A program made the translations under genes and the position numbers. The notes below the pieces were generated by a model. It had not been told where the DNA came from, made no database searches, and saw only the letters and a program-made list of their open reading frames with translations. DNA of 23,587 bases. Origin: a virus. The first letter of the stretch is position 1; each line of letters opens with the position of its first letter. The stretch lies in the IMG/VR virus record IMGVR_UViG_3300021963_000657, positions 1 through 23,587 of that record. One strand, given 5' to 3'. This document shows, piece by piece, positions 2,567 to 22,593 of the stretch.

Positions 2567-3223
2567 CTACCCCTCAATCACCCATCCAGCAAACTCACCC
2601 ATGCGGAAAAACTGCTTGGCATCAGACCCAAGGATGGCTGGATCAATCGGTATCTGCACGCCAGCCAGACTCATCTCCTTGGTCAGCACATCCTCTGGCT
2701 TGGCTCCCTGCTGGAGTTTGAACTGCATCGTGAGGCGCTTCAAAACGGTCGAGAAGTACCCTTGGTGATCGCAAACCTTGTCCACCACTATCAACACCCC
2801 ACCTTTGTATAAATCGGCTCTGAGGGCGTTTAAAACGCGTTGGCGATCATGCACTGGGATAAACATCATTGTGAGGAACAACACATAGACTTGCGCAGGC
2901 TGGACAGAGTCGTAGCGGATGTCTGCCTGCGTGATGCTGACATTGTGATGATTCTCGAATCGACGCTTCAGCACATCGACCATCGTCGGACTTTTCTCGA
3001 TGGCGCGTGCATATGCTTTACGCTCCAGTAAAAGTGGCATCAACTTGTCCACCATGTTGCCTGTCGATGCGCCAATATCCACCACCACACCGCCCTCTGG
3101 CAGGTAGTTGCGCACGATGTAGGCCACAGCATCGGTGACCATGTCGTACCACGGCAACTGTTCACGCACATGAGAGTCAAATGTCTGAGCAATCTCTGGT
3201 GTATCAAATGTCCAAGATTTCAT
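2567..3223 (-). CDS. CmoA-like SAM-dependent enzyme (candidate carboxy-SAM synthase)
   Basis: This 218-residue class I methyltransferase-fold protein has motif I VVDIGASTGN (47-56), an acidic ribose-binding position in AIEKSP (Glu76), and DIR (101-103). Its whole layout matches bacterial CmoA: an N-terminal WTFD (4-7), then SP-x-MV-x-x-x-K/R-R, a hydrophobic VLFLTMMFIPVHDRQ strand-helix, GGVLIVVDK, and a C-terminal GEFAGWVI. CmoA converts SAM and prephenate to carboxy-SAM, normally for tRNA uridine-34 modification. Here the gene is coupled by ATGA to a cytosine DNA methyltransferase, not to CmoB, which suggests supply of a modified cofactor for DNA. One caution: the carboxylate-binding Arg of E. 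coli CmoA (Arg199, from memory) seems to align with Glu183 (TKEMS). A plain methyltransferase remains possible. Fold is confident, product is not. Confidence 0.8.
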   Translation of the reverse strand: MKSWTFDTPEIAQTFDSHVREQLPWYDMVTDAVAYIVRNYLPEGGVVVDIGASTGNMVDKLMPLLLERKAYARAIEKSPTMVDVLKRRFENHHNVSITQADIRYDSVQPAQVYVLFLTMMFIPVHDRQRVLNALRADLYKGGVLIVVDKVCDHQGYFSTVLKRLTMQFKLQQGAKPEDVLTKEMSLAGVQIPIDPAILGSDAKQFFRMGEFAGWVIEG

Positions 3224-4134
3224 ACTGGCAACCTCTTTGCAATTTCATATATCACATTGACGGTCACAGCGCGGCCACATCGCTCATATCTTTGCGAGTC
3301 AGTGACCAATGAACCGTCGGCGTACCACTTTGTCCAGTTGTCTGGCAGTGATTGAAGGCGCTCACATTCGAGCGGCGTGAGTTGCCTCAGAAGAGACCCA
3401 ACTGCTTGTCCTCTTCTGGTGTATCCCATCCCAGTAGCATCAACTTCTCCACATACTCTGTCTTCAAGGTAGACATTGTTAGTGTCTCCCTCGTAAAGTC
3501 GGTGAAGTAAGGTTCCGACTGCGAATCTTTTATGATTTGCGGCTTGAATCCTCGGTTGAGAAGTTTGTTGCGTTCCGTCTTGAACACCATCCGCTGAATA
3601 GCATCTTCCGATAGGAAATACTTGGGGTCTGGGTCGGTCTCTAAGATTGCCGACAATGAAGACTCGTTCCCTACTCTGCGGGACTCCAAAATTTTTGCTG
3701 TTAAGACATTCCCATTGGATGTCGTACCCCAGTTCATCCAGACTTGCGACGATAACTCCAAAGGTTCGCCCTCCATCGTGGTTGAGGAGTCCTTTAACAT
3801 TTTCAAGGAATAAATATGGGATTCGCTTACCAGCGAGGATGCGGCAGATTTCAAAAAAGAGAGTACCGCGTGTATCTTCTGTCCCGAATCCTGTTCGCTT
3901 ACCAGCAACGCTGAAAGTCGCGCATGGAAATCCTCCGACGAGTAAGTCGGCATCGGGGAGTTCATCAGCGTGAATGGTTCGGATGTCTCGTCCATCTGGT
4001 TTGTCTTTGAAGTTGTGTTCATAAATGCTTGCCGCTTTCGGCATAAATTCGTTGGCCCAAACGCATTGATGACCAGCACGCTCAAGACCTAAGCGAAAGC
4101 CACCAATGCCCGCAAATAATTCAACGAACCTCAT
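3220..4134 (-). CDS. Cytosine-C5 DNA methyltransferase with altered cofactor pocket
   Basis: This 304-residue enzyme is slightly shorter than M.HhaI (327). It has motif I ELFAGIGGF (5-13), the ribose-binding Glu29 in ANEF, motif IV GGFPCATFS with catalytic Cys71 (67-75), motif VI ENV (111-113), motif VIII QSRERVFIVG (153-162), a short target-recognition region (about 165-245), motif IX RQLTPLECERLQ (250-261) and motif X CGRAVTVNV (286-294). Catalytic residues are intact. The Gln after the catalytic Cys is Ala (A72) and the motif X Asn is Arg (R288); both positions line the methyl pocket of SAM. This points to a bulkier, negatively charged cofactor such as carboxy-SAM. It overlaps both neighbours by ATGA. 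It should modify phage DNA in the cytoplasm at an unknown sequence. No partner restriction enzyme is seen. Confidence 0.92.
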   Translation of the reverse strand: MRFVELFAGIGGFRLGLERAGHQCVWANEFMPKAASIYEHNFKDKPDGRDIRTIHADELPDADLLVGGFPCATFSVAGKRTGFGTEDTRGTLFFEICRILAGKRIPYLFLENVKGLLNHDGGRTFGVIVASLDELGYDIQWECLNSKNFGVPQSRERVFIVGNLRDRPRPQVFPIGRCYSADGVQDGTQQTSQPRIQAANHKRFAVGTLLHRLYEGDTNNVYLEDRVCGEVDATGMGYTRRGQAVGSLLRQLTPLECERLQSLPDNWTKWYADGSLVTDSQRYERCGRAVTVNVIYEIAKRLPV

Positions 4135-17614: not shown

Positions 17615-18538
17615 TTACCTCGCCATTTTTACTGTGCCGCCGCGTGCCAAATAGGCATGGGCTTTTGATCGTTGGGCTTTGCCGCCGTTCTTCATAATCA
17701 CTGCGCCGCCGTTTGCTTTTTTCATAAAAGCGCCAAGGCCAGTCAACAAGCCAGCAATCTGAGACAGTGGGCTGTTGGAGTAAGCGCCAGACTGTGGGCC
17801 AGTTTGTTGCTGGATAGACCCGCCGGGGACTTGGTACTGCTTCAGCAACTGAGAGAACGCTTGCGCCTGCGCCATTGGGTAGTCCAGCATCTTCTGGCCG
17901 AGAGCCTGTTGCTGACCACCGTACTCGCTCATAGCCTTCAAGCCACCAAGGCCCAGACCTTGTTGTGCTTGGCCTAAGTTCTCAAAACCTTGACCAGCCT
18001 GCAAAGCGCGGGACAGGTCTGCCTGCGCAAACTTGCCAGCCTCTGTGTAGCCAGACTGGAGGGCTTGCATTTGCTTACCCAGCAGATCGGACTGGAGGTC
18101 ACGCAAAGAGTTGCCAGTGATTTGCGCCTGACGACGAGAACCGAACTGACCAGAGCCAGTTGCCGCCGCGCCAAGGTTTGGCAGGATGTTCTCTTGAATG
18201 CTCCGCTGTTGCAGGCGACCCATTTCATCCACCACACCCATTGTGTAGGGGTTCATGTAGTCGGCCACAACATCAGGCATGGTGGTCGCGCCAGCCTGCC
18301 CAAACAGTTGAGATGCCGCGCCCATTGAGCCAGCACCAGAGAATGCCACATCTGGCACCATCTGGAAGGCTTGCTGTTGCAGTGGGCTAAAGCCAGCCAC
18401 ACCACCCTGCTGGACGGCGTTCTGACCAAGGTTGGCTATGTCTTGAAGGTAGTTGGTGTAAAACTCTGGCGCAGTCGCTTGCGTCTGCGTCGTCGTCGTT
18501 ACATCTGGTAGGGGATCACCCTGAAACAGTCCAGCCAT
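17615..18538 (-). CDS. Gln/Gly-rich virion protein
   Basis: This 307-residue protein is rich in Gln, Gly and Ala. It contains NYLQDIANLGQ, FGSRRQAQITGNSLRDLQSD and repeated LGQ/AQQGLGLG stretches, and a basic C-terminus with GGAVIMKNGGKAQRSKAHAY. The composition and helical repeats are common in phage tail-hub, internal or injected proteins. Its start overlaps the stop of the giant upstream gene as TAATG. No enzyme motif is visible. A structural role is inferred from neighbours. Confidence 0.75.
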   Translation of the reverse strand: MAGLFQGDPLPDVTTTTQTQATAPEFYTNYLQDIANLGQNAVQQGGVAGFSPLQQQAFQMVPDVAFSGAGSMGAASQLFGQAGATTMPDVVADYMNPYTMGVVDEMGRLQQRSIQENILPNLGAAATGSGQFGSRRQAQITGNSLRDLQSDLLGKQMQALQSGYTEAGKFAQADLSRALQAGQGFENLGQAQQGLGLGGLKAMSEYGGQQQALGQKMLDYPMAQAQAFSQLLKQYQVPGGSIQQQTGPQSGAYSNSPLSQIAGLLTGLGAFMKKANGGAVIMKNGGKAQRSKAHAYLARGGTVKMAR

Positions 18539-21500
18539 TATCTGGCTCCTTTCAAGTAGGAAGTAAGCGCCTTGGTCTTTGGCGGAATCTTGTTCACGGG
18601 CGCAGACCGCTTATGCATTCTGATATTTTCCCTGAATTTGTCCAAAGCCTGTGCGCCTGCTTTTGTAGAACCGTTGCCAATTTGCGCCACGGTCTCAGCG
18701 TCAATCACATATTCGCCGTCAGCCAGCATCGCGGGGATGTCGTCAGACTGGCCGTCACCTGCGCCGTGTACCGCCGCGCCTTGGCGGAAGTTCAAGCGGC
18801 CATTGGTGATTGGAACATTTGACCAAGCAGGCAGGCCACCGCTCTTCATGCCGACGCCAGCGGGTGGCACGCCTTGAGGGATAGATGGCTGTTGCGGAGC
18901 CATACCCATCTGGGGCAATGCCTGCTGTGGAGGCGATTGCTGGGCGTTCTGAGCGGCCTGTGGAGGCATCTGAGGTTGCCCTTGTGGTTGCTGTTGTTGC
19001 TGGAATGGCGCAGGGTTGCGCAAGTTCTGCAAGGGGTCAACAGGTGTGCCAAAGGTGTAGTAAGTCTGGGGCGCTGTCTGGCCCAAGCCACCTGTAGGCA
19101 TACCACCATCCTTCATGCCTTCTGCGTAGCCCTCATCGGCCATCTCTTGGTCTTCCGCGTCGCCTTCCATGAACTGGTCAAGGCCAGACTCTTCAGCGTC
19201 GTAGCGTGCGTAGTCCCCGGGGTTCACCTCGTTGAAGCCGGGGGCGTTCAGGTTCTGATACAACTCGCGGCCATAGAGTTCTGGCATCTGCTCTGGCGTG
19301 CCATATTGGTCGTAGCCAACATAGTTTGCTGGGCCAATGCCAAAGTCTGTGGTGCGTGGGTTGATTGCGCCAACGCCCTCCATGTCAAAGCCGCCGCCAC
19401 CTCCGCTTGAGCCGCCACCGAACAGATCAGTGTTGCCCAGCAATGCGCCGAGAACAGCACCAGCCGCGCCTGCGCCACCGTAAGTGTTCAGGCTTGCCAG
19501 CAAGTCAGCAATTGCACTTTCGCTGGCCGCATTTCCTCTGTTTTCGGCAATTTTTTCTTGGATGGTTTTCTCGTTACCAGTGTTGACCGCTCCAGAACCA
19601 CCCGCGCCAGTTACTTGCGTGGGGCCAGTTACGCGACCACCGCCCAAAGGAATCACATTGCCTTGGGGGTCATACACGCCAACAATATTACCAAAGCCAT
19701 CGGTCACGATAGCGTTGCCCTCGTCGTCGTATGTTGTGTCATATGCGTCAACAGACCTGAACACATTGCCATCGGAGTCGTAAACAATTTGTGACCCGTC
19801 GTCAAATGTCTCGATGCTAGAGCCGTCGTCAAAATATTGACGGTTGCCTTGGCCTGCTTGTGTCAAGCCGCCAGTTGGCCCAGTTGGTTGACCATCTTGC
19901 GCAACGACTTCGCCGTTTGCATCAGTTACAAACACGATGTTGCTGTCAGCGTCAATAGTCACGGTGCTACCGTCGTCATCCACATAAGTGGCCGTGCCAT
20001 CACCATTAGAAACAAACCCTTCAGGCCAGCCTTCTGGAGGCGTAGCGTCATCAGAGACAGCAGAACTGGCTGAGTAAGTGTTACCTACTGGGTTGCGATT
20101 TCCAGTCAATGTGTAGCCAGTCATTGTGGGGTCGTCTGACTCACCAAAGTTGTAGTTAACATTTTGGAAATCTTGGACTTCTTCAGTTGTGTCTGAATAA
20201 TTGGGATCACGCGCAGACAAACTACGAGTTGCAAACGCAGGCTCGGCCTCATCTGTTGCCTCAGTTACATCAACAACTTCACCGTCTGCGTCGTAAGTAA
20301 TGGAAGAGCCGTCGTCGAAGTATTGAGTAATTGTGCCGTCTTCGTTTTCTTCTTCTTCGATTGGCTCAATTTCTTCGTCATCTCCTTCAGATGGATCACC
20401 ACCCTCTTGCATATGAATCAAGCCACCTTTTTTCACATCGTAGTCGTCGTATGAATAGTCGTCTTCAGAGGAATACTCATCTTCAGAAGAATACTCATCG
20501 TCTGCCGTGTACTCATCTTCAGCCGCATACTCGTCTTCAGCGCCGTAGCCTTCTGCGTACTCAATTAGGTTGCCATCCCAATCATAGGAATTGCCGTCGT
20601 CGTCGTACTGAACAAAGTCAGAGTGATCAGCCTCTGCAATCAGGTCGCCGTTGTAGTCGTATGTGTTGCCATACTCATCGGTAAATGCCACCTCGCCTTC
20701 AGTTGACTCTTCGTCGCCAACCATAGTGCCGTCGGCGTATTGGACAAGGTTGCCGTCAGGGTCATACAGGTTGCCCTCATCATCAGAGTACAAGCCTTCG
20801 TATGACTCCTCTTCATCAGCGACAATATCCTCCTCGTCTGTAACGGCATCCTCGTCGCCATTTACAAGCGTATCTGATCCATCAATGACCTCGCCGTCAG
20901 CGTCATATGTAACACCATCAGAGTCGGTGTAGGAAACAATGTCGCCGCTTGAGTCATAAGTGATAACGGTGCCATCATCCAGTGTCTCGGTGGTGTTGCC
21001 GCCTGCATCTAAATCTCCGCCGCCTTCGGTTATCTCATTGCCGTCAGCGTCATAAGTTGAGCCATCGGTGTCGGTGTAAGAAACAATTTCGCCGTTAGCG
21101 TCAAGCGTAACAACAGTGCCGTCGTCCATCACTTGAGTTGTGGTGCCTTCATCGTCTGAAGATATGTCTGTGTCATCACCGCTGTCAGAGGTGTCATCAC
21201 CTTCGCCACCAGTAAGCGTGTCTTCACCAAGGCCAACCCATACAGCGTTGCCTTCTTCGTCCAACTCGTACCCCGGCATCAAGTTGCCTTCGTCGTCGTA
21301 AGCAACTCCAGTTACCGTGGTGTCGGTGGTGTCATCGGTTTCGTCGTCATCAACCCCTGTTGCGCTCTTTACAGCGCCAGCGGCACCAGCCGCGCCCTTT
21401 GTTCCTGCGGTAGATTTTGTGCCAGTGCTTTTGGTTGTTTTTGGGCCAGCAGTAACAGGGGCTTTTGGGCCGACTGTTTTAGTTGTGCCAGTTCCACTCT

Positions 21501-22593
21501 TGGGAACAAATGGAGGCGTGCCAACATTGGTGCCAGTTCCTTTGACAACAGAAGTAACGCCGCTGGTGCCCGTTGTTCCAGTGCCTTTTACAACCCCAGT
21601 CCCAGCAGTGCCTGCGCCAGCAGTACCCGTTCCTCTAACCGTACCTGTTCCAGCAGTTGTAGTCCCAGCGGTTCCAGTTCCTTTGACGGTTCCAGTGCCA
21701 GCGGTTCCAGAGGTGCCTGTTGTTTTAATTCCTGTGCCGCCAGCGTTGGTGGTGGTTTTCAAACCAGTGCCACCATTCATGGTGTCTAGGTTCTTTGATG
21801 TTCCTTTTGTAAGCCCAGTCCCAGAGGTTGTGCCAGTGCCAGCGGTTTTTGAGCCGCCAGTCAACTTGTCAATTACAAACTTGGTTCCAGCACCAAGAGC
21901 CGCACCAGTCAAAGCATTTGTCAGCGTGCTGGTCAGACCTGAACCCGACTTAGTCCCGCCAGTCCCACCAGTTGCACCAGTGGTCTTGCCCGTGCCAGTA
22001 CCAGTTGAGGTCAAAGTCTTTGCCCCTGCTGTTCCTGTGCCAGCAGAAGTCAAACCTTTTGCGCCAGCGCCTCCAGCGGTGCCAACAGTGCCAGCGGTCT
22101 TGCTGGTCAAGCCGGGTAACTTAGAAGTCGTACCAGCCGCAGTAGTCCCTGCAACCTTGCCCGCCGTAGCGCCAGTGCCTGTTGTCTTGCCAGTGGTAGC
22201 GCCAGTAGTCTTTCCAGCCGCTGTAGAGCCTTTCAGGGCCGATGTAACAGCATTCTTAGGCTGACCTGCCATATTGCCAAATTTATCGACTGTGCCCTTG
22301 CCTGCGCCGCCCATAGCACCAGCACCGCCAGCACCCCCGCCCATAGGGCCAGCACCCATACCGCCGACGCCACCTGCGCCGCCACGGCCACCGCCCATGC
22401 CACCACCCATTGGGAGGTAGCCTTCAGACTCGCCCATTGGGCCGTAGCCACTTGAGCCAGCCAGTTGGCGGATCGCAGAAGTGATTGGAGTCTCGCCACG
22501 CAATGCGGCGGCACGATCACCAGCGCGGGTATCTTGATACCGCTGAAACCGTGGCAATTGATTGACTGCTCTGCGTTTTTCCAAAATTGCCAT
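18538..22593 (-). CDS. Giant repeat-rich virion protein
   Basis: This 1351-residue protein has a short head (1-45), a Gly/Met-rich stretch (50-100), a Thr/Gly-rich repeat zone with many GTGT and GTGTAG units (about 111-414), and an Asp-rich zone of repeats of the form DDG-x-x-x-x-YD-x-x-G-x-x-V/I (about 430-780 and 866-985) with an EDEYSSEDEYSSEDDY run near 695. A Pro/Gln-rich segment (1185-1245) follows, then a C-terminal domain with GAGDGQSDDIPAMLADGEYV (1277-1296), a signature I know from tailed-phage structural proteins. The Asp-rich repeats could bind calcium. It probably forms a fibre or an extended adhesive part of the virion. An AAGGAT ribosome site precedes the ATG. Confidence 0.8.
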   Translation of the reverse strand: MAILEKRRAVNQLPRFQRYQDTRAGDRAAALRGETPITSAIRQLAGSSGYGPMGESEGYLPMGGGMGGGRGGAGGVGGMGAGPMGGGAGGAGAMGGAGKGTVDKFGNMAGQPKNAVTSALKGSTAAGKTTGATTGKTTGTGATAGKVAGTTAAGTTSKLPGLTSKTAGTVGTAGGAGAKGLTSAGTGTAGAKTLTSTGTGTGKTTGATGGTGGTKSGSGLTSTLTNALTGAALGAGTKFVIDKLTGGSKTAGTGTTSGTGLTKGTSKNLDTMNGGTGLKTTTNAGGTGIKTTGTSGTAGTGTVKGTGTAGTTTAGTGTVRGTGTAGAGTAGTGVVKGTGTTGTSGVTSVVKGTGTNVGTPPFVPKSGTGTTKTVGPKAPVTAGPKTTKSTGTKSTAGTKGAAGAAGAVKSATGVDDDETDDTTDTTVTGVAYDDEGNLMPGYELDEEGNAVWVGLGEDTLTGGEGDDTSDSGDDTDISSDDEGTTTQVMDDGTVVTLDANGEIVSYTDTDGSTYDADGNEITEGGGDLDAGGNTTETLDDGTVITYDSSGDIVSYTDSDGVTYDADGEVIDGSDTLVNGDEDAVTDEEDIVADEEESYEGLYSDDEGNLYDPDGNLVQYADGTMVGDEESTEGEVAFTDEYGNTYDYNGDLIAEADHSDFVQYDDDGNSYDWDGNLIEYAEGYGAEDEYAAEDEYTADDEYSSEDEYSSEDDYSYDDYDVKKGGLIHMQEGGDPSEGDDEEIEPIEEEENEDGTITQYFDDGSSITYDADGEVVDVTEATDEAEPAFATRSLSARDPNYSDTTEEVQDFQNVNYNFGESDDPTMTGYTLTGNRNPVGNTYSASSAVSDDATPPEGWPEGFVSNGDGTATYVDDDGSTVTIDADSNIVFVTDANGEVVAQDGQPTGPTGGLTQAGQGNRQYFDDGSSIETFDDGSQIVYDSDGNVFRSVDAYDTTYDDEGNAIVTDGFGNIVGVYDPQGNVIPLGGGRVTGPTQVTGAGGSGAVNTGNEKTIQEKIAENRGNAASESAIADLLASLNTYGGAGAAGAVLGALLGNTDLFGGGSSGGGGGFDMEGVGAINPRTTDFGIGPANYVGYDQYGTPEQMPELYGRELYQNLNAPGFNEVNPGDYARYDAEESGLDQFMEGDAEDQEMADEGYAEGMKDGGMPTGGLGQTAPQTYYTFGTPVDPLQNLRNPAPFQQQQQPQGQPQMPPQAAQNAQQSPPQQALPQMGMAPQQPSIPQGVPPAGVGMKSGGLPAWSNVPITNGRLNFRQGAAVHGAGDGQSDDIPAMLADGEYVIDAETVAQIGNGSTKAGAQALDKFRENIRMHKRSAPVNKIPPKTKALTSYLKGAR
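19639..21306 (-). repeat. Asp/Gly-rich coding repeats
   Basis: Within the giant virion gene, units such as DDGTVVTLDANGEIVSYTD and DDGTVITYDSSGDIVSYTD recur as degenerate tandem copies, followed by TYDADGNE/TYDADGEV. They resemble YD-type repeats or calcium-binding Asp-Gly repeats. The copies differ at DNA level, so they are not recent duplications. Confidence 0.7.
21352..22263 (-). repeat. Thr/Gly-rich coding repeats
   Basis: About 300 residues are built from short Gly-Thr-Gly-Thr-x units with Ala, Lys and Val variants, for example GTVKGTGTAGTTTAGTGTV. The DNA is therefore full of GGNACN words and prone to slippage, and it opens long meaningless frames on the opposite strand. Confidence 0.75.

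Follow-up and report, generated by a model that had tools for sequence, protein, structure and literature searches.

The gene pair and its surroundings

The stretch of DNA considered here, hereafter the window, is a virus record of 23,587 bases, whose minus strand carries a gene pair encoding a cytosine-C5 methyltransferase and a homologue of CmoA (Table 1). A first-pass annotation had described the two genes as overlapping by ATGA, and both open reading frames as well as the junction (CCA GTA TGA / ATG AAA TCT) are confirmed. Its statement that no CmoB-like gene lies in the window holds for all 23,587 bases, and no match to a CmoY-like open reading frame (AMP-forming amide ligase) was found in the window either. 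Dozens of viral contigs keep the two genes as a pair, and most of the changes in them are synonymous, which indicates that their association is not due to chance; for instance, the window methyltransferase gene and that of relative L058 differ by 34 synonymous and 16 non-synonymous codons.

Elsewhere in the window, positions 18538-22593 encode a protein of 1351 aa that contains long repeat regions, rich in Gly/Thr and in Asp, and whose C-terminus weakly matches a tape-measure family. As regards the phage host, the helicase and one structural gene gave weak and mixed matches.

Table 1. Features of the predicted carboxymethylation cassette (window positions).
Feature	Position	Strand	Basis or remark
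CmoX-like cytosine-C5 DNA carboxymethyltransferase (predicted; GFPC class, PCA + GRA)	3220..4134	(-)	304 aa; PF00145, M.HhaI fold, CmoA linkage
CmoA-like carboxy-SAM synthase (predicted)	2567..3223	(-)	218 aa; TIGR00740, fold, conserved pair in relatives
ATGA stop/start overlap of cmoX and cmoA	3220..3223	(-)	ORF junction
Codons for Cys71 (nucleophile) and Ala72 (Gln82 in M.HhaI)	3919..3924	(-)	alignment
Codon for Arg288 (Asn304 in M.HhaI, Arg350 in SpCmoX)	3271..3273	(-)	predicted carboxylate holder of carboxy-SAM

A published precedent

It has been described that the Synechococcus phage S-B43 encodes CmoA, the C5 enzyme CmoX and the ligase CmoY (Yang et al., Nat Commun, December 2025; PMC12783734). 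SpCmoX, characterised by structure (PDB 8YF3), mutant and mass spectrometry, accepts carboxy-SAM only; its Arg350, the equivalent of Asn304 in M.HhaI, contacts the carboxylate, and the R350N mutant is inactive (PMC12783734). Furthermore, DNA carboxymethylation stops HhaI cleavage, while CmoY attaches glycine to 5-carboxymethylcytosine, S-B43 DNA containing the glycyl form only (PMC12783734). The first-pass annotation had considered that such a cassette, if natural, would be a novelty; this claim is superseded, and novelty of natural 5-carboxymethylcytosine was rejected, as a base derived from it in phage DNA is already on record (PMC12783734). The authors' census of 5,615 CmoX sequences demanded the SPPC motif together with Arg350, and the term "GFPC" is absent from the main text of that article (PMC12783734). 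No further paper on CmoX was found in the literature searched.

The window resembles S-B43 in that a CmoA homologue adjoins a C5 enzyme whose residue at the HhaI Asn304 position is Arg, and in that a CmoY homologue occurs in relatives of the pair. It differs in the class of its CmoX, which is GFPC with PCA and falls in a separate clade, as opposed to the SPPC of SpCmoX; in its CmoA, only about 21% identical to SpCmoA (tblastn); in being without CmoY; and in the order CmoX-CmoA with overlapping genes.

An HhaI-like enzyme with two altered active-site positions

The window methyltransferase is a full PF00145 protein (E=1.3e-77; 261.8 bits against a cut-off of 22), in which motif I, the motif IV Cys (Cys71), the motif VI ENV (111) and the motif VIII RxR (RER, 155) are all present and intact. 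Two positions depart from the HhaI-like GFPC methyltransferases, with which it shares fold, catalytic Cys, ENV and RxR. Motif IV reads GGFPCATF, so that Gln82 of M.HhaI is replaced by Ala72 (PCA for PCQ); motif X reads YERCGRAVTVNV, Asn304 of M.HhaI becoming Arg288 (CGRAV for GNS/GNA). The linkage to CmoA further sets the enzyme apart from M.HhaI. The SPPC motif on which the published census relied is absent, the window and its clade reading GGFPCATF. Arg288 aligns with the corresponding Arg of SpCmoX, in a column that holds R in 18/18 CmoA-linked rows of the tree set and N in the 43 others.

The best PDB structural match is M.HhaI, and 8YF3 was also matched, although the predicted structure is poor in the target-recognition region (178-245). 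In M.HhaI, Gln82 and Asn304 are the two conserved residues that chemists shorten for the transfer of bulky groups: the Q82A/N304A double mutant prefers bulky transfers over methyl, and Q82A alone reduces methylation (PMC10666283). The natural Ala72/Arg288 pair fits a pocket that has been both opened and charged for carboxy-SAM. The engineered M.MpeI N374K, cited by Yang et al. (PMC12783734), likewise has a basic residue in place of the motif X Asn, but the window enzyme is natural, carries Arg instead of Lys and Ala in motif IV, and has its own CmoA partner.

A divergent CmoA homologue

The partner protein reaches TIGR00740 with E=2.5e-18 and 66.6 bits, below the curated cut-off of 193.3; CmoA (TIGR00740) is still the top-scoring of the NCBIfam models for it, and PHROG 4752 also matches (E=1e-45). 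In the PDB its predicted fold (pLDDT 85) is matched best by 4gek, the CmoA of E. coli (TM 0.85), the top matches being 4gek, 1im8 and 4iwn, that is, the CmoA proteins of E. coli and H. influenzae. With these bacterial proteins (the latter known as YecO) it shares the fold and the N-terminal WTF...P.Y motif; it differs from them in a shorter C-terminal lid, in about 22% identity and in the change of Arg199 to Glu.

In E. coli CmoA, Arg199 binds the carboxylate by a salt bridge (PMC3663124). The same position is also Glu in SpCmoA, whose activity exceeds that of E. coli CmoA (PMC12783734). Since an active enzyme has Glu there, Arg199 is not decisive for CmoA function, and it was dropped as a criterion. 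The invariant Arg163 is a candidate for taking over its part.

Linkage of the motif X Arg to CmoA

The first-pass annotation had proposed asking whether the Ala and Arg changes co-occur with the CmoA homologue, and they do. In a set of methyltransferase loci picked from the genomes of bacteria and archaea as well as from viral contigs by conserved methyltransferase patterns alone, Arg at motif X was present in 11 distinct proteins, all 11 with Ala after the catalytic Cys. CmoA adjoins 11/11 of these Arg enzymes and, within the fetched flank, 0/155 of the Asn enzymes, which have Gln after the catalytic Cys in 147/155 cases. The Fisher test (p = 2e-17) overstates independence, because Arg arose once in that set and the counts are therefore not independent of each other. 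Within the window clade the Gln-to-Ala change accompanies Arg. Of the 54 loci retrieved by means of the window methyltransferase, CmoA is found in all except L091; this is the sole Arg enzyme scored without CmoA in all sets, and its contig stops 29 bases past the gene.

Evidence for more than one origin of the Arg enzymes

In a tree computed with the two trait columns taken out, the window clade (11 rows, 100/100) is nested among GFPC-Gln-Asn enzymes, while the SPPC Arg enzymes (7 rows, 100/96) adjoin SPPC-Gln-Asn enzymes without CmoA. A single clade of all Arg enzymes was not rejected in an earlier set without the SPPC-Asn enzymes (p 0.44, long branch); once these were added it was rejected (delta lnL 158, p-AU 4e-36), and with it a single shared origin of Arg with SpCmoX. 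Moreover, a third class (L043 and L044) combines GSPCQ with GRS and has a window-like CmoA adjoining; it stands apart from the window clade with p 0.024, on a long branch. Given the separate SPPC and GFPC clades and this additional class, the Asn-to-Arg switch appears to have occurred on two occasions at the least, and probably on three.

Relative to the literature searched, what is new is an HhaI-like, independently derived branch of very likely natural DNA carboxymethyltransferases, lying outside the published SPPC census. Across the separate branches, one active-site position would have been converted alike more than once, alongside a CmoA gene, and a compact HhaI-like enzyme would carry by nature an Ala/Arg pair at the positions that chemists mutate in M.HhaI for bulky cofactors.

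Exchange of modules among relatives

The window CmoX clade uses at least three types of CmoA: the short window type, a type that groups with the assayed SpCmoA (L137, L138, L141, L145; 100/99), and a type closer to E. coli CmoA (L143, L237). Conversely, the short window-type CmoA is paired with an SPPC CmoX in L081, in L123 (Moraxella phage Mcat8) and in L397 (Azospirillum plasmid). Each half of the cassette thus occurs with a biochemically proven kind of partner, which constitutes the strongest indirect support for the function. In about nine distinct relatives a CmoY-like ligase, with 39% identity to SpCmoY, separates CmoX from CmoA; the window and about 50 distinct relatives are without it.

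Proposed function and alternative readings

From the observed gene pair, residues, linkage, tree and module swapping we infer what follows on reactions, motif and role. With considerable confidence, we regard the window pair as a phage DNA-modification cassette yielding 5-carboxymethylcytosine, its CmoX recruited independently from GFPC enzymes. CmoA would make carboxy-SAM out of host SAM and prephenate; CmoX would flip cytosine out of a short motif, Cys71 attacking C6, and would transfer the carboxymethyl group from carboxy-SAM onto C5, with Arg288 gripping the carboxylate and Ala72 giving space. The resulting base in phage DNA should block host restriction. As no CmoY was seen, the acid may stay free, so that modification in the window phage and its CmoY-less relatives may end at free 5-carboxymethylcytosine. 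If so, these phages would keep a negatively charged DNA base, offering a chemical handle and possibly evading restriction. Unlike SpCmoX, the window enzyme would derive independently from HhaI-like GFPC methyltransferases. The proposal of DNA carboxymethylation by CmoA and an altered C5 methyltransferase, already advanced in the first-pass annotation, is in this way supported by residues, linkage and the S-B43 precedent.

It is unlikely, although less so than the other alternatives, that 5-carboxymethylcytosine is only an intermediate to which a ligase encoded elsewhere in the phage, or an unrelated one in a part beyond the window, attaches an amine in the manner of CmoY in S-B43. The presence of CmoY homologues inside the operon of about nine relatives, the exclusively glycyl form of S-B43 DNA (PMC12783734) and the size of the window, a 23.6-kb record that may be partial, would agree with it. 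Against it, CmoY had no match in the window nor in the whole 47-56 kb records of CmoY-less relatives (G001-G005, G011), where a hidden copy was looked for, whereas CmoY-bearing relatives of similar size reach E<1e-170.

That the pair comprises a conventional 5-methylcytosine methyltransferase using SAM, next to a protein of methyltransferase fold with some other role, is improbable. The CmoA homologue does fall under its family cut-off and is without Arg199; nevertheless, its best fold match is CmoA, the motif X Asn is kept in all CmoA-less relatives examined and is Arg in the window clade, relatives carry CmoY in the operon, and SpCmoX with the same Arg takes only carboxy-SAM and is inactivated by R350N (PMC12783734).

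CmoA classically serves the tRNA cmo5U pathway, and Dnmt2-like C5 enzymes methylate tRNA. On this basis the pair might be imagined to modify RNA (the tRNA wobble position) with the methyltransferase homologue as an RNA enzyme, a reading that we reject as scarcely credible, since the window holds no CmoB and the nearest structures are the DNA enzymes HhaI and HaeIII, with Dnmt2 far lower.

To return to DNA carboxymethylation as the function of the cassette, a broader proposal combines two parts: that this activity arose two or more times, from different classes of C5 methyltransferase but through one and the same change of Asn to Arg, and that in the often CmoY-less GFPC branch phage DNA retains the acidic 5-carboxymethylcytosine in free form as its final base. 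Taken as a whole we advance it tentatively, as a possibility for which the chances fall slightly on the unfavourable side.

Other arrangements of the genes

In Moraxella phage Mcat8 (KR093632; L123:3920-5627) the SPPC/Arg CmoX overlaps the window-type CmoA, both being annotated as hypothetical. SPPC/Arg CmoX genes with CmoA also exist on plasmids of Azospirillum, Thermobispora and Scytonema (L397, L398, L399), some with phage genes, so that the system is found on bacterial replicons as well.

In the Staphylococcus phages SPbeta-like (L128:5681-6679) and vB-SscS-F1 (L131:6491-7498), CmoA adjoins a C5 enzyme whose motif X has Gly in place of Arg, and in vB-SscS-F1 a CmoY homologue lies between the two; if these are CmoX enzymes, carboxylate binding must differ in them. 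A CmoA gene overlapping that of a C5 methyltransferase is found in L076 (6612-7604), L078 and L080; this methyltransferase retains PCQ, and its motif X is shortened (NGMTVPV) and lacks Arg. CmoA homologues are also present in L068-L075 and L077, with no C5 methyltransferase found within the fetched flank. Finally, in Erwinia jumbo phages (L405:4007-6136) CmoA occurs together with a CmoY homologue at around 12-14 kb; about 15 kb from them these phages encode a CmoX-like protein of 709 aa whose motif X reads GRICVP.
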